Source of the DNA: Sulfurovum sp. 16-42-52
GTDB taxonomy: Bacteria > Campylobacterota > Campylobacteria > Campylobacterales > Sulfurovaceae
Direction of reading: 5' to 3'
DNA: 41,745 bases
Assembly: GCA_002281755.1 (NCBI GenBank)
Contig: NCHB01000011.1
Location: 1-41,745, forward strand
Position 1 is the stretch's first letter. Every line of letters begins with the position of its first letter. The notes beneath the pieces are model-generated. The model did not search any database and was not told where the DNA came from. It worked only from the letters and a program-made list of their open reading frames with translations. Shown piece after piece: positions 11,140 through 20,596 of the stretch. The translations under genes and the position numbers were made by a program.

Positions 11140-13128
11140 TTACGCTTGCTCTATTTTTTCTATCATCACCGCACTATGATTATAGTCTGGCTGCAAAGAC
11201 TCTCTATCGAGTATATCACTGGTGAGATAGTTGATGTCACGATTGCTGATGGGAATAAAGATGGTCTTTTCTTTGATGCCCTTGGTGATCTCTACCGTGC
11301 TTACAAGCTCCCCTCTTTTTGAGCGCACTGTGATACTGTCCCCCTGTTTGAGTCCCAATGTTTTGGCATCGGTAGGGTGCATCTCACAGAAATTGAGCGC
11401 TTTGTATTTGAGAAGTGTACTGGGCAAATTGGTTTTGGTGCCGCTGTGCCACTGGTCTCTGGTTCTGCCCGTTAAAAGTATGAAGGGGTACTCCAGTGTC
11501 GTTCTCTCACTGAGCAATTTGTTTTCTACAAAAAACAGATTGCCTTTTTGATCGGGGGTTAAAAAATGTTTGATCTTCTCACCCCATACAAAGGGTGCAA
11601 CGCCCAAAGTATCATACTCGGCTTTGGCTATATCCATATACCCGTTCAGTTTGGTCATGGCCTGATACTCTTCAAAGATCTCTTTGGTGTTTTTAAACCC
11701 AAACGCTTTTTCATGCCCCAAAGCTTGCGCCAAAAGCTGAAACACTTCCCAGTCAGGTTTGCAGTCGATGGAGGTACGGGTGAGTTTTTCCTGCTTGGTG
11801 ATAGTTCTGTCCATATTGGTTTGTGTACCCTCTTTCTCTCCCCATGGAGCGGCGGGCAGCTGAATATGCGCGAACTTTGCTGTTTCACTCCCCTCATAGG
11901 CGTTAATCTCGACCACCAGCGGTATGTTTTGGATGAGCGTTTCTACTTTGTTTCTGTTGGGTAGATGGTACACGGGGTCGGTATGGCAGATAACGAGTAC
12001 ATCCAGATTGGCTTCAAGCATCTGCGTCGCGGTGAGTCCTGCTTGGTTGCTGATGTTCTTGGTTTTCCAAAAGTGTGAGACTTTGCGAATGCTCTCTTCA
12101 TCAAAACCCAAATGAACCGCCAACATCGTAGATAGCCCACCTACTTCCCTGCCTCCCATGGCGTTGGGCTGTCCTGTCAGACTCAAGGGACCATTACCGG
12201 GTTTAAATATCTTTCCTGTAAGCAGATGGGTGTTGAGCAGTGCAAGGTTTTTATCGACCCCTTGTGAAGATTGGTTCAGCCCCATCGTCCATGCCGTGAT
12301 GATATTTTCACTGTTTTGATAAAGTTCCCAAAAGGCATCAAACTGCTTTTGACTGAGTCCCGTTCGTTTAAGCATTTTAGTCACTGGCACACGCTTAAAC
12401 TTGTTTTGAAGCAGCTCAAAGTTATTCACATGCTGCGCTACAAAGGTCTTATCATAACACGCTTCATCGATTAGTCTTTTGGTGATGAGATTAAAAAAAT
12501 CAATATCACTCCCTGCTCTAATCGGTAAATGCAAATCGGCATCATACGCCGTCTCTGTACTGCGAGGGTCAACCACGACAACTTTGAGTCCCTCTTTTTT
12601 TGCTTTTTTGATCTGGTTGTGAAACACCACATGCGCTTCAGCCGTGTTGGCACCTGCTAAGATGAGAAGGTCTGACTTGAAGATGTCTTCCATGCGCACA
12701 GGCACAAAGTCAGCCCCCAAAGCTTTTTTATATGCCACCACCGCGCTTGCCATGCAGGTTCTGCTGTTTGTATCAACATTGTTAGTGCCCAAAAATCCTT
12801 TGACCAGCTTATTGGCTATATAATAGTCTTCTGTGAGCATCTGCCCCGAGAGATAAAACCCAATCTTCTCTTTGGGCGCTTTTTTGATGGCTGCTGCTAT
12901 CTTGTTGATGCTCTCTTCCCAGCTACATACTTTGTAACCCTCTTGTATCGTATCGCGCATCTGCGGTCGTAACAACCGCGTTGATGTTTGGATGCTGATG
13001 AGCTCAGACACCCCTTTAGAACAGACTTTTCCTTTATTGGTCGGGTAGGTGATGTCACCGATGAGTTCATTTTCATTATACTCCAAACCGCACCCCACAC
13101 CACAATATCCACACACAGAACGTATCAT
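11140..13128 (-). CDS. Cytoplasmic molybdopterin nitrate reductase, assimilatory NarB/NasC type
   Basis: Mo-bisMGD enzyme of the NarB/NasC/NapA group, 662 aa. The N-terminal [4Fe-4S] site is Cys6, Cys9, Cys13 and Cys36 (C-x2-C-x3-C-x22-C). The likely Mo ligand is Cys125 in NSRTCMASAV, as in NapA and NarB. The C-terminal 'EMHPTDAKTLGLKQGDSI' part is the usual dinucleotide-binding barrel. There is no twin-arginine signal, so it works in the cytoplasm, which fits assimilation rather than respiration. It lacks the C-terminal [2Fe-2S] domain of some NasA proteins. It is divergent from a transporter operon across a 166-bp gap with a shared palindrome. No nitrite reductase or dedicated electron donor is in the window. 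A formate dehydrogenase-like role is less likely because of the SRTCMASA sequence. Confidence 0.86.
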   Translation of the reverse strand: MIRSVCGYCGVGCGLEYNENELIGDITYPTNKGKVCSKGVSELISIQTSTRLLRPQMRDTIQEGYKVCSWEESINKIAAAIKKAPKEKIGFYLSGQMLTEDYYIANKLVKGFLGTNNVDTNSRTCMASAVVAYKKALGADFVPVRMEDIFKSDLLILAGANTAEAHVVFHNQIKKAKKEGLKVVVVDPRSTETAYDADLHLPIRAGSDIDFFNLITKRLIDEACYDKTFVAQHVNNFELLQNKFKRVPVTKMLKRTGLSQKQFDAFWELYQNSENIITAWTMGLNQSSQGVDKNLALLNTHLLTGKIFKPGNGPLSLTGQPNAMGGREVGGLSTMLAVHLGFDEESIRKVSHFWKTKNISNQAGLTATQMLEANLDVLVICHTDPVYHLPNRNKVETLIQNIPLVVEINAYEGSETAKFAHIQLPAAPWGEKEGTQTNMDRTITKQEKLTRTSIDCKPDWEVFQLLAQALGHEKAFGFKNTKEIFEEYQAMTKLNGYMDIAKAEYDTLGVAPFVWGEKIKHFLTPDQKGNLFFVENKLLSERTTLEYPFILLTGRTRDQWHSGTKTNLPSTLLKYKALNFCEMHPTDAKTLGLKQGDSITVRSKRGELVSTVEITKGIKEKTIFIPISNRDINYLTSDILDRESLQPDYNHSAVMIEKIEQA

Positions 13129-13294: not shown

Positions 13295-14566
13295 ATGTTG
13301 AAACAGGTTTTAAAAATCGGATTAGGTCTCTCGCTTATTGCTACGGCAGCACTTGCAGAACTGGAGAAAACAGATCTTAAGATAGGATTTATCCCTCTTA
13401 CGGATTGTGCCGCTTTGGTCATTGCAAAAGAGAAAGGGTTTTTTACTAAACATGGTCTCAATGTCCAATTGAGCAAAGAAGCGTCATGGGCAAATGTTCG
13501 TGACAAAATGACCGTCGGTGAGCTTGATGCTTCACACATGCTAGCAGCCATGCCTATTGCATCAACTCTTGGCGTTGGAAGCATTCAAAAAGACATGGTA
13601 GCCCTTATGGCATTGGGACAAAATGGTGATGCGATTACCGTCTCTAACAAAATGTATGACGCCATGATGTCAGCAGATGCCGATGCAACCAAAAAAGGTT
13701 CATCTCTTGGGCTTAAAAAAGTTATTGACTCAAAGACTATGGGTGTTCCAGAATTTGGAATGACATTTCCTACGGGGACACACAACTATCACATTCGCTA
13801 CTGGATGGCAGCAGGCGGTGTCAATCCTGATACGGATGTTGCGCTCAAAGTCGTACCGCCACCTCAAATGGTAGCCAACATGACAGCTGGAAATATTGAT
13901 GGGTATTGTGTCGGTGAACCATGGGGACAACGGGCTGTTGTAGGGAATATTGGAAAAGTTGTTGTAACGGGTTCTCAACTGTGGGTTGATGGTCCTGAAA
14001 AAGTGTTGGGCGTACAGAAATCCTTTGTAGAAAAATACCCTGAGACAACCAAAGAGATGATTAAAGCCGTGATTGAAGCGGGTGTATGGCTGGATGCTTC
14101 ATGGGAAAATCGTAAAGAAGCCTCAGCCATTTTATCCTCAAAAGCGTATGTCAATGCACCCAAGGATGTGATTGACAACTCTATGACAGGTACCTATATG
14201 TTCACCAATGGCGTTGATACCGCTATGCCAGAGTTCAATCAGTTTGCAAAAAACAATGCACTGTATCCATACTATTCCCATGGCTTGTGGCAAGTGACTC
14301 AAATGATCCGTTGGGGACAATTGGATCATGCTGTTGATATGAAAAAGACGGTTGAGAGTGTGTATCGTCCTGACTTGTTTGCAACGGCTGCCAAAGAAGT
14401 AGGCTATGCTCTTCCCCAAAGTCCTTGGAAAGTGGAGACAAAATTTATCGATGGTGTGACATTTGATTCTAACCAAGCAGTAGATTATATTTTCAATGCG
14501 CCTATCAAATCACCAAAAATCACCAAAGAGGCATTGGCAGAAGTAAACAAATGGCAAGTGAAATAA
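13295..14566 (+). CDS. ABC transporter substrate-binding protein, NrtA/CynA family (nitrate, nitrite or cyanate)
   Basis: Periplasmic binding protein, 423 aa, with a signal peptide ending near 'ATAALA' (residue 21). There is no lipobox cysteine, unlike the lipoprotein NrtA of cyanobacteria, so it is probably free in the periplasm. Family landmarks include 'KIGFIPLTDCAALVIAKEKGFF', described here in parts as the KIGFIPLTD start and the KGFF helix, then GVPEFGMTFPTGTHNYHIRYW-type ligand-pocket sequence around 150-170 and YCVGEPWGQRAV around 205-217. NrtA (nitrate/nitrite), CynA (cyanate) and CmpA (bicarbonate) are close relatives. The adjacent nitrate reductase argues for nitrate, the cyanase gene four genes downstream argues for cyanate. 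A strong ribosome site (AAAGGAG) precedes the ATG. Confidence 0.9.
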   Translation: MLKQVLKIGLGLSLIATAALAELEKTDLKIGFIPLTDCAALVIAKEKGFFTKHGLNVQLSKEASWANVRDKMTVGELDASHMLAAMPIASTLGVGSIQKDMVALMALGQNGDAITVSNKMYDAMMSADADATKKGSSLGLKKVIDSKTMGVPEFGMTFPTGTHNYHIRYWMAAGGVNPDTDVALKVVPPPQMVANMTAGNIDGYCVGEPWGQRAVVGNIGKVVVTGSQLWVDGPEKVLGVQKSFVEKYPETTKEMIKAVIEAGVWLDASWENRKEASAILSSKAYVNAPKDVIDNSMTGTYMFTNGVDTAMPEFNQFAKNNALYPYYSHGLWQVTQMIRWGQLDHAVDMKKTVESVYRPDLFATAAKEVGYALPQSPWKVETKFIDGVTFDSNQAVDYIFNAPIKSPKITKEALAEVNKWQVK

Positions 14567-14605: not shown

Positions 14606-15388
14606 ATGCCACTTAAAACCATTAATGCAATTGTATTACCTATACTACTTTTTGGCGTGATTCTCGCCATCTGGAGCTATATCGCCCAAATGATACCCGG
14701 CTTCCCCCCTCCACTGGAAGTGGGAAGTGAACTTATTGTTGTGTTATCTGATCCACTCTACGACAATGGAGCAGGAGACCAAGGTATCGCTTGGCAGCTA
14801 CTTAGTTCGCTCAAGCGTGTTTTTGGAGGATTTGCACTCGCCATCATCGTGGGTGTTCCGTTAGGGCTTTTGATTGGTATGTCTAAAACAGCACAGACTG
14901 CATTCAATCCTTATATTCAGATTTTAAAACCCGTCTCTCCTTTGGCGTGGTTGCCCTTGGCATTGTTTGTATTTAAAGATGTCGATATGACCGCCATTTT
15001 TGTTATCTTTGTCACATCGATTTGGCCGATTATCATCAATACGGCACTGGGGGTAAGAAGTGTGAGCGAGGATTATCTCAATGTTGCCAAAGTATTACAG
15101 TTGAGTGCTTTTGAAAAAGTCCTTCAAATTATTCTCCCTGTTGCAGTTCCGTATATTTTTACGGGGATGCGTCTCTCTTTGGGTATTGCGTGGCTGGTTA
15201 TCGTAGCTGCTGAAATGCTTACAGGAGGTCTTGGAATCGGGTTTTGGATTTGGGATGAATACAACAATCTCAACTACTCTCACATCATTATCGGGATTAT
15301 TCTTATCGGGATTATCGGATACATACTCGATACTATCATGGGGAAAATCGCCGATTATTTTGACTATACCAAGAAAGGGAGATCATAA
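14606..15388 (+). CDS. ABC transporter permease, NrtB/CynB type
   Basis: Inner-membrane permease of the nitrate/cyanate/taurine group, 260 aa, with about six hydrophobic segments. The first is at residues 8-30. The EAA-type loop that contacts the ATPase is around 150-175 ([19 protein letters not shown]). The '[15 protein letters not shown]' segment near 110 is characteristic of NrtB and SsuC relatives. It follows the binding protein by 39 bp with an AAGGAG ribosome site. Its stop codon overlaps the ATPase start by one base (TAATG), so the two are translated together. It has the same ligand ambiguity as the binding protein. Confidence 0.92.
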
Positions 15389-16185
15389 TGGGTCAACAAA
15401 AATTTTTACACTTAGAGAACATCGAAAAAAGATTTCCGATTCAAGGAAAAAACGACTATATAGCGGTCACCGATGTGAACCTAGAGATTAAAAAAAATGA
15501 AATTGTCTCCATCATCGGGCACAGTGGTTGTGGCAAATCAACCTTGCTCAATATGATTTCAGGATTGGACAAAGAGACAAATGGCTATATCTTTTTAAAA
15601 GGCAAAGTGATTACAGGTCCTGGACCAGACAGAGCTGTGGTGTTTCAAAACCACTCTTTGCTTCCTTGGCTTAGTGTCTATGAAAACATTGAGATGGCGG
15701 TTAAAAAAGTGATGCCAGAACTTTCTTCTTCTGAATTACGAAGCAGGGTTGAGACCTATATTTCTATGGTAAATCTTGATCATGCAAAAGATAAATTGCC
15801 AGGAGAGATAAGTGGCGGTATGAAACAACGCGTAGGGATTGCAAGAGCCTTGTCTATTGACCCCGATGTCTTGTTGATGGATGAACCATTTGGAGCCTTG
15901 GACTCACTCACGAGAGCGAACTTGCAAGAGCACCTGATGCGTATTCAGCAAAATGTACAAAATACCGTGATTATCATTACTCACGACATTGATGAAGCGG
16001 TACTGCTGAGCGATAGAGTCATCATGATGACCAATGGTCCAGAAGCAACCATCGGTGAGATTTTAGAAGTCAATCTCGAACGACCCAGAAACAGAGTGGA
16101 ACTTCAAAGTGACCCCGAATACATTCGCTGTCGCGAAGCCATTTTGAGCTTTCTGTATGAAAAATTTGCCAAGGAGGATGACTAA
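15388..16185 (+). CDS. ABC transporter ATP-binding protein, NrtD/CynD type
   Basis: ATPase of the importer, 265 aa. Walker A is GHSGCGKST at residues 44-52, the signature reads ISGGM at 141-145 (LSGGQ in the consensus, ISGGM being common in the nitrate group), Walker B is VLLMDEP at 161-167 and the switch His is in ITHD at 197-200. It lacks the C-terminal NrtA-like regulatory domain found in cyanobacterial NrtC, so it corresponds to NrtD or CynD. One ATPase gene is present, so the transporter would use a homodimer. The gene overlaps the permease by one base. The next gene, a porin, begins 89 bp later. Confidence 0.93.
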
Positions 16186-16274: not shown

Positions 16275-17513
16275 ATGAAAAAATCGATACTACTCTCACT
16301 TCTGGCTTCAAGCTTGCTTGCTGCAGGCGGCGACATCGCTCCTGCCACACCCGTGGCTACCACACCGGTACCTACAGAGTTTGGACTCTTAGACAATTTA
16401 GTCTATAACGGTCAGCTCTTGACGCGATACGAAAATGCCGATGACAGCGTCAACGAAGAAGCCAATGCTTTCACCACACGTTTTGCACTCTCTGCAGGTG
16501 CTGGTCTTGCAGGCATCGAAGGCTTAAGTGTTTTTGGCCAAATCATCGCCGTGACCAATTTTGGCTATGATGAATATGCTCCAGAACAAGCGGGTTACGC
16601 GCTGATAGCCGATCCGCAAAATTCTCGCATCACTCAAGCGTATTTGGATTACAAAATAGGAAAAACAGCTGCAAGAATCGGCCGTCAAATGATGAATATC
16701 GATGATGAACGTTTTGTCGGAGCCGTAGGCTGGAGACAAATGCCTCAAACCTTTATGGCATACACCCTGACCAACACATCCATCGAAAAAGCCACGCTGA
16801 TGGCTTCTTACATCACAAACCGCTACGGGGTAATGGATACACTGAGCGGTAACACGGAAACGGCAGTGCTTCACGCAGACTACCAGGCGATGCCCGAACT
16901 TAAGCTCACGGGTTACGGGTACCTTATCGGCTCAAGCGGAAACACGTATGGAGCGATGGCAACAGGCAAAGTCAGCTTCTTGAACTACATCGCTGAAGCA
17001 GCCACACAACAAGATGCTACACTTGCCAACGAAAATGCAGGCAAACCAAGTGTCGATGCGATGTATTACCGTGGGGATTTAAGTACGGTTTATAACGGAA
17101 TCGTTTTGGGTGTTGCCTATGAGTCTCTAGGCAGTGCTGATGGCAACAGTCACGGATTTACCACTCCTTTTGCCACGCTGCATAAATGGCAAGGTTTTGC
17201 GGATGCCTTCTTAGGCTACACGGCAACCAGCAATGCCTTCGGTCTCAATGATGCGTATGCCAAAATAGGCTATGTCGGCTCCACATACGGCAAAGTGTTT
17301 GGTTTTTATCACGACTTCAGTGCCCAAGACACAACAGGTACCAACACTGAAGATGCAGGAAGCGAGATTGACCTACTCTATACCTATGATTTTTCCAAAA
17401 AATTAGGGTTTTTAGCTAAAGCAGCGTTTTTCACAGGCGAATCCAATTCAGTCATCGGTGCAGCACGCAATGATTTGGACAGATATTGGGTTCAGCTCGA
17501 TTACAAATTTTAA
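16275..17513 (+). CDS. Outer-membrane porin of the nitrogen operon
   Basis: A 412-aa beta-barrel protein. The signal peptide ends at about residue 17 (SLLAA). The mature start GGDIAP is followed by a Pro/Thr-rich linker and then alternating strands; the last residue is Phe, as expected for insertion by the Bam machinery. It resembles Campylobacterota major porins and OprD-like barrels. Placement between the ABC importer and the FNT channel suggests it brings the same small anions through the outer membrane, which is an inference from position only. An AAAGGAAAC ribosome site precedes the ATG. Its N-terminal motif is shared with the unrelated small barrel encoded at 29119-29769. Confidence 0.85.
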   Translation: MKKSILLSLLASSLLAAGGDIAPATPVATTPVPTEFGLLDNLVYNGQLLTRYENADDSVNEEANAFTTRFALSAGAGLAGIEGLSVFGQIIAVTNFGYDEYAPEQAGYALIADPQNSRITQAYLDYKIGKTAARIGRQMMNIDDERFVGAVGWRQMPQTFMAYTLTNTSIEKATLMASYITNRYGVMDTLSGNTETAVLHADYQAMPELKLTGYGYLIGSSGNTYGAMATGKVSFLNYIAEAATQQDATLANENAGKPSVDAMYYRGDLSTVYNGIVLGVAYESLGSADGNSHGFTTPFATLHKWQGFADAFLGYTATSNAFGLNDAYAKIGYVGSTYGKVFGFYHDFSAQDTTGTNTEDAGSEIDLLYTYDFSKKLGFLAKAAFFTGESNSVIGAARNDLDRYWVQLDYKF

Positions 17514-17534: not shown

Positions 17535-18347
17535 ATGGCTTATTTAGCACCCTCAGAATTTGCAACAAAAATGGTTGATTCAGGAGAATCAAAAGTATAT
17601 ATGTCCACCAAAGATACGCTCATCAGAGCCTATATGGCAGGGGCCATTCTGGCACTTGCCGCCGTATTTGCAGTCACTATAACGATGCAAACAGGATCTC
17701 CCTTACTGGGTGCATCCTTTTTCCCTGTCGGGTTTATTATGCTCTATCTGATGAGTTTTGATCTTCTCACCGGAGTCTTTGTTTTGGTGCCTCTAGCATG
17801 GATAGACAAACGTCCAGGCGTAACGGTCGGTCAGATACTCAGAAACTGGGGTCTTGTTGGACTGGGCAACCTTCTAGGTGCACTCACGGTCGCTTTTATG
17901 ATGGCATTTATCTTTACCTTTGGTTTTGATACCGACGGAGGAGAGATAGCCAAAAAAGTTGCCGGCATAGGAGAAGCCAGAACATTGGGCTATCAGGCAC
18001 ACGGTATCTCGGGTTGGTTTACGGTCTTTATCCGCGGTATGCTGTGTAACTGGATGGTCGCAATGGGAGTTGTCGGTGCGATGATTTCAACAACGGTGAG
18101 CGGCAAGGCTATCGCCATGTGGATGCCGATCATGCTCTTTTTCTTTATGGGCTTTGAACACTCTATTGTCAATATGTTTCTTTTTCCTTTCTCATTGATT
18201 ATGGGCGGTAATTTTACCATTACCGATTATCTGTTATGGAATGAGGTACCGGTTGCTTTAGGTAACCTTGCAGGTGGCCTTCTTTTCACAGGACTGACAC
18301 TCTACGCAACCCACGTCAAAACAGGCGAAAAAAGAAAATTAAGCTAG
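17535..18347 (+). CDS. Formate/nitrite transporter (FNT) family channel, probably nitrite
   Basis: Pentameric anion channel of the FocA/NirC family, 270 aa, with six membrane segments. The key pore histidine is His209 in GFEHSIVNMF, at the same number as in FocA. The 'RGMLCNWMVAMGV' segment at 167-179 and 'SFDLLTG' at 74-80 are family hallmarks. The family also carries formate and hydrosulfide. In this locus, next to a nitrate reductase and an NrtA-type importer, nitrite is the most likely substrate, taken up as a nitrogen source or exported when nitrate is reduced. It starts 21 bp after the porin with an AAAGGA ribosome site. Confidence 0.9.
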   Translation: MAYLAPSEFATKMVDSGESKVYMSTKDTLIRAYMAGAILALAAVFAVTITMQTGSPLLGASFFPVGFIMLYLMSFDLLTGVFVLVPLAWIDKRPGVTVGQILRNWGLVGLGNLLGALTVAFMMAFIFTFGFDTDGGEIAKKVAGIGEARTLGYQAHGISGWFTVFIRGMLCNWMVAMGVVGAMISTTVSGKAIAMWMPIMLFFFMGFEHSIVNMFLFPFSLIMGGNFTITDYLLWNEVPVALGNLAGGLLFTGLTLYATHVKTGEKRKLS

Positions 18348-18410: not shown

Positions 18411-18851
18411 ATGAAAAAAATCGAAATGACAGAAGAGATAATGGCAGCCAAAAAACATTTAGGCATAGGATGGGAAGAACTCGCAGAAAAAGTATCTCTA
18501 AACCCTGTCTTTTTAACCTCTGTATGCCTTGGGATGAACACCCTTAGCAAGGAAGCGGCAAATAAACTGTCTGAAGTCCTTGAGTTACCTCAAGAGATTG
18601 CAGAAGCTTTACAGGAATATCCTACTAAAACATGGCACTTTAGCGTACCACAAGACCCTTTGGTGTATCGTTTTTATGAAGTAGTGGGCGTGTATGGCGA
18701 AACCATGAAAGAGATCATCAATGAAAAGTTCGGCAACGGCATCATGAGTGCCATTGATTTTTCTCTTGATATCCAAAAAGAAGAAAACCCTTTAGGAGAT
18801 AGAGTCGTTGTCACCATGAACGGTAAGTTTTTACCTTACAAATCCTGGTAA
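18411..18851 (+). CDS. cynS: Cyanate hydratase (cyanase)
   Basis: Converts cyanate plus bicarbonate into carbamate, which breaks down to ammonia and CO2. Length 146 aa. The catalytic residues are Arg87 and Glu90 in YRFYE and Ser113 in IMSAI, matching Arg96, Glu99 and Ser122 of E. coli with a constant offset of 9. The N-terminal helix-turn-helix-like domain occupies about residues 1-75 and the C-terminal oligomerising catalytic domain follows. A good ribosome site (AAAAGGAG) precedes the ATG. In cyanobacteria cynS follows a cynABD importer related to NrtABCD, so its presence here suggests that the locus, or at least its ABC importer, handles cyanate. Confidence 0.96.
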   Translation: MKKIEMTEEIMAAKKHLGIGWEELAEKVSLNPVFLTSVCLGMNTLSKEAANKLSEVLELPQEIAEALQEYPTKTWHFSVPQDPLVYRFYEVVGVYGETMKEIINEKFGNGIMSAIDFSLDIQKEENPLGDRVVVTMNGKFLPYKSW

Positions 18852-18874: not shown

Positions 18875-20596
18875 ATGAATCATCAATTAAAACTCTGCAT
18901 AGGTCAGTATTCACACAAGGGTCGCAAAGAGATCAATCAGGACTTTCATGATGTCTGTTTACCCCAAGGTTCCCTGCTGCATACAAAAGGAATTGCTCTG
19001 GCAATGGCAGATGGCATTAGCAGCAGCAAAGTCAGTCAGGAAGCCAGCAAAACCGCTGTAAACAGTTTTTTGGAAGATTATTTCAGTACTTCAGAAGCAT
19101 GGTCGGTTAAAAAATCGGCTCAGAGCGTGATTCGCGCATTAAACTCATGGATCTATGCACAAAATAGACAAAATCTTTATCATTTGGACAAAGATAGTGG
19201 CTACGTGTGCACGTTTAGTGCTTTAATACTCAAATCAACCACCGCGCATATTTTTCACATCGGGGATATACGCATCTATCGTCTCCGTAATACTGTGCTT
19301 GAACAACTTACAGACGATCACAGGGTATATATATCAAAAGAAAAAAGTTATCTTGGGCGTGCGTTCGGTATTGATTCAGATGTTCGGATTGATTATGATG
19401 CCCTGCGACTTGAACTTGATGACATCTATATCGTGATGAGTGATGGTGTGTATGAGCATACTGATTTTGAGTGGTTACTTGAGAGACTGCATACCCAAAA
19501 AGAGGACTACCCTGCTCTGGCTCAACAGATTGTGCAACATGCCTACGATAGAGGTAGCCCGGATAATCTCAGTGTACAACTTGTAAAAATAGATAGGTTG
19601 CCGCAATACCATACAGAAGAGGAACATCCTTTCTTGGTTGTAAAACCTTTTCCTCCCTCACTCGAAGCCCGGATGACAATTGACGGCTATACGATTGTCC
19701 GCCCCCTAAGCATCACCAGCCGCAGTCATGTCTTTCTTGCAACAGATGAGGCAACACACACAGCGGTTGTCATTAAGACGCCCTCACAAGATGTCAAAGA
19801 AGATAAAGCCTATTTAGAACGGCTTTTGCTGGAAGAATGGATCACCAGACGGCTTAATAACGCACATATCGTTAAATCCTTCCAGCAGTCACGCGAACGA
19901 AATTCTCTTTATACCGTTATGGAGTACATTGAAGGGCAAACCCTCGCGCAATGGATGACAGACAATCCAAACCCTGATTTAGAGGAGGTAAGAGGCATTG
20001 TCGAACAGATTGCAAAAGGTTTGTTGGCATTGCATCGTCAGGAGATGATTCATCAGGATTTAAGACCCCAAAACATCATGATTGACAAAACAGGAACCGT
20101 TAAAATCATAGATTTTGGCTCAACCCATGTTTCTGGCTTATCTGAAATGAATGCCTTAATCGAGCCTCATACGCTTCTTGGAACAGCAGCCTATACTGCT
20201 CCAGAATATTTTTTGGGCGATGTAGGTACCTTTCGTTCCGATCTTTTTTCACTAGCAGTCATTACCTATCAGATGCTCTCAGGAAAATTGCCCTACGGTA
20301 CACACGTTGCAAGGTCCAAAACGCCAGCTGCTCAAAAAAAATTACGCTATCGCTCTTTATATGTGGAAAATATGCATATCCCCTTTTGGATAGACGAAAC
20401 ACTCAAAAAAGCCTTATCGGTAAAACCAAATAAGCGTTATCAGGAGTTATCAGAATTTCTGTATGATCTTCGTCATCCCAATCAAAAGTTTCTAAATAAA
20501 GCTAAATTGCACTATTATGAAGCCAATCCGCTTGTCTTTTGGAAGACCCTATCGTTTATTCTTTTTTGTCTTGTTCTGTTTTTATTGTTCAAATAA
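18875..20596 (+). CDS. Membrane-anchored PP2C phosphatase/Ser-Thr protein kinase fusion
   Basis: A bifunctional signalling protein of 573 aa. Residues 1-240 are a PP2C-type phosphatase with the metal aspartates Asp23 (NQDF), Asp46 (MADGIS), Asp190 (MSDG) and Asp230 (SPDN). Residues 268-535 are a kinase domain: Lys301 (VVIK), a catalytic loop HQDLRPQN at 393-400 with Asp395 and Asn400, DFG at 413-415, and APE at 443-445. The glycine loop is poor (RPLSITSRSHVFL) and HRD reads HQD. A hydrophobic helix at 553-573 anchors the C-terminus. PP2C-kinase proteins next to nitrate/nitrite uptake genes occur in other Proteobacteria (the PA1782 neighbourhood in Pseudomonas, from memory), so a control role in nitrogen uptake is likely but unproven. 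No Shine-Dalgarno sequence precedes the ATG, which lies 23 bp after cynS. Confidence 0.88.
   Translation: MNHQLKLCIGQYSHKGRKEINQDFHDVCLPQGSLLHTKGIALAMADGISSSKVSQEASKTAVNSFLEDYFSTSEAWSVKKSAQSVIRALNSWIYAQNRQNLYHLDKDSGYVCTFSALILKSTTAHIFHIGDIRIYRLRNTVLEQLTDDHRVYISKEKSYLGRAFGIDSDVRIDYDALRLELDDIYIVMSDGVYEHTDFEWLLERLHTQKEDYPALAQQIVQHAYDRGSPDNLSVQLVKIDRLPQYHTEEEHPFLVVKPFPPSLEARMTIDGYTIVRPLSITSRSHVFLATDEATHTAVVIKTPSQDVKEDKAYLERLLLEEWITRRLNNAHIVKSFQQSRERNSLYTVMEYIEGQTLAQWMTDNPNPDLEEVRGIVEQIAKGLLALHRQEMIHQDLRPQNIMIDKTGTVKIIDFGSTHVSGLSEMNALIEPHTLLGTAAYTAPEYFLGDVGTFRSDLFSLAVITYQMLSGKLPYGTHVARSKTPAAQKKLRYRSLYVENMHIPFWIDETLKKALSVKPNKRYQELSEFLYDLRHPNQKFLNKAKLHYYEANPLVFWKTLSFILFCLVLFLLFK

Follow-up and report, generated by a model that had tools for sequence, protein, structure and literature searches.

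A tail-anchored PP2C–protein kinase fusion encoded beside FNT and NarK-family transporters, and its candidate role in the control of nitrite or cyanate entry

The closest described relative of the protein considered here is a Pseudomonas fusion of a PP2C phosphatase with a protein kinase (gi|9947763), which was reported in 2005 and is called uncharacterised in the relevant passages of that report (PMC1262709). As in the present protein, termed K, an N-terminal PP2C domain is tethered to a C-terminal Ser/Thr kinase, and the plasmid-borne relatives of K carry the same NCBI name as the Pseudomonas fusion, “bifunctional protein-serine/threonine kinase/phosphatase”. The Pseudomonas protein is presumably PA1782. 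PA1782 itself appears only in a listing, as a third P. aeruginosa Ser/Thr kinase (PMC8560001), and the passages of the 2005 report that deal with the fusion mention neither a transporter pairing, nor a clade-specific HxD motif, nor a tail anchor (PMC1262709). No functional study of PA1782, or of a pairing between K and a transporter, was found in the open literature, subscription journals lying outside the search. The PP2C–kinase architecture has been known since 2005. The open papers searched contain no description of the rule that pairs K with a transporter, an absence which is not in itself proof of novelty.

The PASTA kinases PknB and StkP, together with the PP2C phosphatases Stp/PstP, provide the closest kinase and PP2C folds, and also form an opposing pair. 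These are two proteins with extracellular PASTA domains, however, whereas K is a single chain with no extracellular part, a membrane helix at the far C-terminus, and a non-RD kinase without a glycine loop. In plants, nitrate transporters and anion channels are set by the same kinds of enzyme, that is, NRT1.1 by CIPK23 with a PP2C, and SLAC1/SLAH3 by kinases with a PP2C. In the plant systems, the proteins are separate and the transporters unrelated, and the resemblance to K is one of logic, not of homology.

In cyanobacteria, the ABC transporters of nitrate and cyanate are shut off post-translationally by ammonium (PMC4390861, PMC6603209), which is explained at the molecular level, in the case of nitrate uptake, by PII, which shuts NrtABCD (PMC6603209). 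The control exerted by Synechocystis PII on NrtC/NrtD depends on nitrogen status and acts post-translationally on a nitrate/nitrite importer, as is proposed for K, but it operates through protein–protein binding to an ABC transporter (PMC6603209), whereas K would presumably use reversible phosphorylation of an FNT or NarK protein. Cyanobacterial NitM is, like the partner of K, an FNT-family channel, for which post-translational control has been rationalised by nitrite toxicity; nitrite uptake through the overexpressed FNT is lethal, which led the authors to postulate that NitM has a reversible regulator (PMC4390861). NitM is inhibited by its own C-terminal tail (PMC4390861), whereas the K system has a dedicated kinase–phosphatase encoded alongside the FNT. 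No equivalent regulator of proteobacterial NarK/NasA or FNT was found in the literature searched, and K is a direct candidate for this role, given that it adjoins a transporter in more than 90% of the testable loci.

The fusion protein and its active sites

The window, that is, the whole stretch of 41,745 nucleotides analysed (Sulfurovum sp. 16-42-52, contig NCHB01000011.1), encodes K as an ORF of 573 amino acids that starts with ATG:

18875–20596 (+): K, a PP2C domain fused to a Ser/Thr kinase and ending in a membrane helix (ORF, Pfam, AlphaFold)
18875–19597 (+): PP2C-type phosphatase domain, residues ~1–241 (Pfam PF13672, invariance in 212 homologues, fold match)
19676–20479 (+): protein kinase domain, residues ~268–535 (Pfam PF00069, fold match to PknB)
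20051–20074 (+): catalytic loop HQDLRPQN, residues 393–400, the non-RD motif of the FNT-linked clade
20528–20590 (+): single C-terminal membrane helix, residues 552–572 (AlphaFold, hydrophobicity in homologues)

The Pfam matches (PP2C_2 at residues 12–222, E 2e-15; Pkinase at 283–522, E 2e-39) place the phosphatase N-terminal to the kinase in one chain, which is the arrangement that defines the NCBI bifunctional fusion. The opposite strand of 18875–20596 holds no reading frame and is closed over the full length. The full-length architecture is kept at 54–88% identity in 80 named genomes, and K is also present in 94 of 274 Gammaproteobacteria genomes, which indicates that the ORF is not a product of chance.

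The AlphaFold model (mean pLDDT 88.4, pTM 0.85, from a 51-sequence alignment) consists of a PP2C fold, a complete bilobal kinase, and a detached C-terminal helix at residues 552–572. In Foldseek searches, the kinase domain matched PknB with TM-scores of about 0.75–0.87 (normalised to the target), while the phosphatase domain matched tPphA and PppA; by sequence, the nearest solved kinases are StkP (E 9e-29) and PknB. The PASTA-kinase profile NF033483 gives K only 174.8 against a cut-off of 450, and the chain stops at the helix, with no extracellular PASTA and no sensory domain found. The helix itself, already recognised as an anchor in the preliminary description of this DNA, is borne out by a C-terminal hydrophobic segment, which 203 of the 205 homologues share; in the remaining two, the C-terminus is truncated or atypical.

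The same description had read the kinase half as degenerate, and as possibly weak or atypical. Its reading of the letters was accurate: Lys301, Asp395, Asn400 and DFG are present (H393-Q394-D395-L396-R397-P-x-N400; D413-F-G), HRD and the Lys that follows it read HQD and Arg, no GxGxxG is found (residues 279–286 are S-I-T-S-R-S-H-V), and the PP2C half has its metal aspartates D46, D190 and D230, together with D23 and D131. The motifs are indeed atypical, but the catalytic residues are essentially invariant, which argues against a weak or degenerate enzyme. Among the 212 homologues, K301, N400 and D413 show no variation and D395 is present in 211, while E320 (αC-Glu), APE and the five PP2C aspartates are essentially invariant. 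Measured against an active Hanks-type kinase, K has the VAIK-Lys, the αC-Glu, the catalytic Asp and the Asn, the DFG-Asp and APE, and lacks the glycine loop.

The unusual motifs are distributed by clade. The glycine loop is absent from every clade of the 212 homologues, and is replaced in FNT-clade K by a conserved S-S-R-S-H-V-Y-L. K is not an RD kinase, as Gln394 precedes the catalytic Asp; this position is Gln in 96 of the 98 FNT-linked and 37 of the 51 NarK_a-linked proteins, Gly in 27/27 Campylobacterota proteins linked to NarK_b, and Arg in 13/15 linked to NarK_c (the NarK_b and NarK_c transporters score 232–287 bits, short of the 311.7 set as the cut-off for TIGR00886, and “NarK-like” is a family-level call). 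The preliminary description had asked whether HQDLRP is family-wide; HQD occurs in most members of the first two of these groups, but the other clades have HGD or HRD and still lie beside nitrate/nitrite transporters. As the first set of relatives was gathered partly with a peptide pattern containing HQ, HQD was recounted in a sample from whole-protein searches, where it occurs in 19 of 19 FNT-linked K. The change from Lys to Arg after HxD, taken at first for degeneracy, is instead a property of the FNT-linked clade (91 of 98). The interpretation of HQD/R as the mark of a single decaying gene was ruled out by its clade-wide occurrence.

Pseudokinases usually lack one of the catalytic residues, and K retains the VAIK-Lys, the HRD-Asp and the DFG-Asp. 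The kinase half might nevertheless be a pseudokinase, serving as a nucleotide-sensing or docking module for a PP2C that is the working enzyme, given the loss of GxGxxG in all clades and the replacement of the HRD-Arg by Gln or Gly in most. This alternative is quite improbable, in view of the near-invariance of K301, E320, D395, N400, D413 and APE, and the confident kinase fold, closest to PknB; a phosphatase, moreover, needs a kinase, and no second kinase is conserved near K. On the pattern of conservation, K is probably an active non-RD kinase without a glycine loop, which appears to be under strong selection to stay catalytic.

Transporter partners of K

In the window, K is preceded by genes of nitrogen uptake and metabolism:

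11140–13128 (−): molybdopterin oxidoreductase, probably an assimilatory nitrate reductase (Pfam PF00384; a family-level call, with NCBIfam matches to Fdh-alpha and NasC both below cut-off and no curated cut-off reached)
13295–14566 (+): NrtA-like solute-binding protein (Pfam NMT1_2)
14606–15388 (+): NrtB-type nitrate ABC permease (TIGR01183 over cut-off)
15388–16185 (+): NrtC/D-type nitrate ABC ATPase (TIGR01184 over cut-off)
16275–17513 (+): outer-membrane porin-like protein (Pfam Alginate_exp)
17535–18347 (+): FNT-family anion channel, the cognate partner of K (Pfam PF01226, 208.9 bits; pairing in 74/76 loci)
18411–18851 (+): cynS, cyanase, between the FNT and K (NCBIfam PRK02866.1 over cut-off)

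The FNT carries the His motif FEHSxxNMF, and cynS is separated from K by 23 bases. Counts of promoters and terminators in the operon of K were not above those in shuffled sequence. Among solved structures, that of the algal channel LCIA (PDB 9v2a) is the nearest to this FNT by sequence, ahead of FocA and NirC.

The FNT is the only near-constant neighbour of K in 79 loci of named genomes (72/79 by ORF clustering). A tblastn recheck, with three contig edges removed, places an FNT upstream of K on the same strand in 74 of 76 loci, which span the Campylobacterota and the alpha-, beta- and gammaproteobacteria. Among all the apparent exceptions to the pairing, L062, L075, L076, L230 and L269 proved to be contig edges. 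Loci L056 and L072 were rejected as cases of K without an FNT, as shadow ORFs had hidden the channel gene. The true exceptions are two Psychromonas loci, L069 (9122–10001) and L073, where an FNT-clade K is intact and the expected place of the FNT is apparently non-coding.

The possibility that K acts on a neighbouring transporter or channel was raised in the preliminary description. The pairing makes the channel a probable target, but the ABC transporter does not share in it. Action on NrtABC is suggested by the shared strand and the apparent operon in the window, and is nevertheless very improbable, since an NrtA-like gene lies within 4 kb in just 4 of the 47 well-flanked FNT-type loci.

An independent sample of Gammaproteobacteria yielded 79 distinct K genes, 77 of them with adequate flanks, and 72 of these 77 adjoin either an FNT (19) or a NarK-family transporter (53), in agreement with the preliminary description, which placed similar fusions near nitrate genes in Pseudomonas. 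L220, L266 and L277 hold real K genes whose partner was not recognised, while L270 and L272 have no adjacent NarK, but place K just upstream of nirB–nasA. In the nirB–nasA operon of L272, K is immediately preceded by a second, separate Ser/Thr kinase-like gene (427–1815, 462 aa). The type of partner is related to sequence identity: K proteins of at least 50% identity are found mostly with FNT, those of 40–50% mostly with NarK_a, and those of about 30% with NarK_c as part of a nirB–nasA operon. All 20 Campylobacterota loci that hold a paralogue of 24–28% identity have a NarK-like gene beside it, mostly in direct adjacency, and in a few cases with one to three intervening genes.

One of these distant paralogues is in the window’s own genome (C21), with a NirA-like nitrite reductase. 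Its NarK-like gene and the paralogue are separated (L133, 6141–8145) by genes on the opposite strand, which are a further trigger factor gene, in addition to the one at 1424–2716 of the window, and a toxin–antitoxin pair resembling BrnT/BrnA. In two other campylobacterotal loci, L145 (8626–10623) and L147, a hybrid histidine kinase–response regulator of 665–671 aa is encoded between NarK and K, and is a possible sensor input.

The kinship of the kinase domain with PknB and StkP might also suggest that K controls the nitrogen operon at the level of transcription or assembly, as a PASTA kinase would, its adjacency to transporters reflecting co-expression only. Such a role is hardly to be expected of a protein with neither an extracellular PASTA nor any other sensor domain, and the adjacency persists across several divergent clades of K and two unrelated transporter folds.

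The association was also examined in reverse, and K is adjacent to 113 of the 125 FNTs of the clade, the other 12 having no adjacent K; several genomes of these K-less FNTs have no FNT-type K anywhere. In L305, a clade FNT is found in two pieces in different frames, an apparent frameshift, with no kinase match in the retrieved flanks. In 41 loci where cynS, from the same operon, served as the control, co-variation is closer between FNT and K (partial correlation given CynS, r=0.51) than between CynS and K (given FNT, r=0.22). The type of partner closely follows the K tree, with 25 changes vs 101 in shuffled data. Specificity is not strict, because an FNT-clade K lies beside a NarK instead in L184 and L062, which represent a few partner switches.

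Channel cargo, neighbouring genes and plasmids

The genes that accompany K vary with the transporter. A cynS gene lies within 2.5 kb of 54 of the 142 FNT-type K genes vs 3 of the 94 NarK-type, while NirB is found near 11/142 and 35/94, respectively, and an NrtA-like gene near 4/142 FNT-type K. FNTs beside cynS have been proposed, but not proven, to carry cyanate (PMC10753782), whereas in the characterised cyanobacterial FNT, which carries nitrite, cyanate is not an inhibitor (PMC4390861). The cargo of the K-linked FNTs would be, so far as gene context indicates, nitrite, cyanate or both, and those linked to cynS may be cyanate channels.

The FNT–K pair is also carried on plasmids (L352, L353 and L351), with cynS alongside in two of the three cases examined: a 17-kb Psychrobacter plasmid and one from Acinetobacter both have cyanase, and one from Methylobacterium has no cyanase nearby. 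No nitrite reductase genes were seen in the examined flanks of the plasmid pairs. This carriage suggests a portable nitrogen module.

These patterns bear on an alternative in which K is tied to the transporter, but has as its substrate a PII/GlnK-type protein, a NasS/NasT-type regulator, CynS or a reductase. Some soluble nitrogen regulators are under kinase/phosphatase control, as in cyanobacterial PII with the PP2C PphA (cited in PMC6603209 and PMC1262709), and K is retained through changes of transporter type between FNT, NarK_a, NarK_b and NarK_c. The transporter alone is constant near K, however, while cynS, NirB and NrtA are variable, K is membrane-anchored in nearly all its members, and the plasmid pairs have no reductases in the flanks seen, which makes a substrate other than the transporter unlikely.

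Proposed control of the channel and candidate sites

On balance, and with moderate confidence based on sequence and gene context, K appears to be a dedicated, tail-anchored enzyme that adds phosphate to its cognate channel and removes it again, and limits the entry of nitrite or cyanate. The C-terminal helix would hold K at the inner membrane, next to the pentameric FNT, and leave the two enzyme domains in the cytoplasm. There, the kinase would phosphorylate Ser/Thr residues on the inward side of the channel, the N-terminal helix (Ser7/Thr11) being the most plausible place. The PP2C half would remove the phosphate, and a single polypeptide could then set the fraction of open channels, either by closing or by opening them, in response to nitrogen or energy status. 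Such a switch would probably serve to block unwanted influx of nitrite or cyanate when ammonium is present, or when the reductase or cyanase is saturated. The paralogues may play the same role for NarK/NasA-type nitrate transporters, with one kinase–phosphatase to each transporter. Counted against this channel switch are the 12 K-less FNTs, the two Psychromonas K genes without an FNT, and the FNT-clade K genes beside NarK. A general rule for the entry of nitrate, nitrite and cyanate, by which every FNT/NarK-type transporter in the Proteobacteria and Campylobacterota is gated by its own tail-anchored bifunctional enzyme, and the FNT at an N-terminal gate phosphorylated reversibly on Ser7/Thr11, is more tentative, and somewhat doubtful. 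If the proposal is true, Ser/Thr phosphorylation in bacteria would gain an FNT channel as a defined substrate, and the presence of a kinase and a phosphatase on one chain with one substrate would be convenient for the study of switch behaviour.

The candidate sites are encoded at the start of the channel gene:

17553–17567 (+): codons of FNT residues Ser7 through Thr11, candidate targets of phosphorylation at the cytoplasmic N-terminus

Residue 7 of the FNT is Ser or Thr in 103 of the 113 K-linked channels vs 3 of the 12 K-less ones, and residue 11 in 103/113 vs 5/12. The naive probability of this association is p=1e-6, but the tree supports only three independent pairs; the differing contrasts are all in the expected direction, and three contrasts cannot reach significance. 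Positions 118 and 123 associate with K about as strongly, and Ser7/Thr11 were not accepted as proven phosphosites on both of these grounds; they are a suggestive lead to the target sites of K. The N-terminus is cytoplasmic in the FNT family, according to a study of FocA (PMC5572259), and a survey of FNT proteins found termini without any residue conserved in any subfamily (PMC5525234). The N-terminus of the K-linked FNTs is conserved as strongly as the membrane core.
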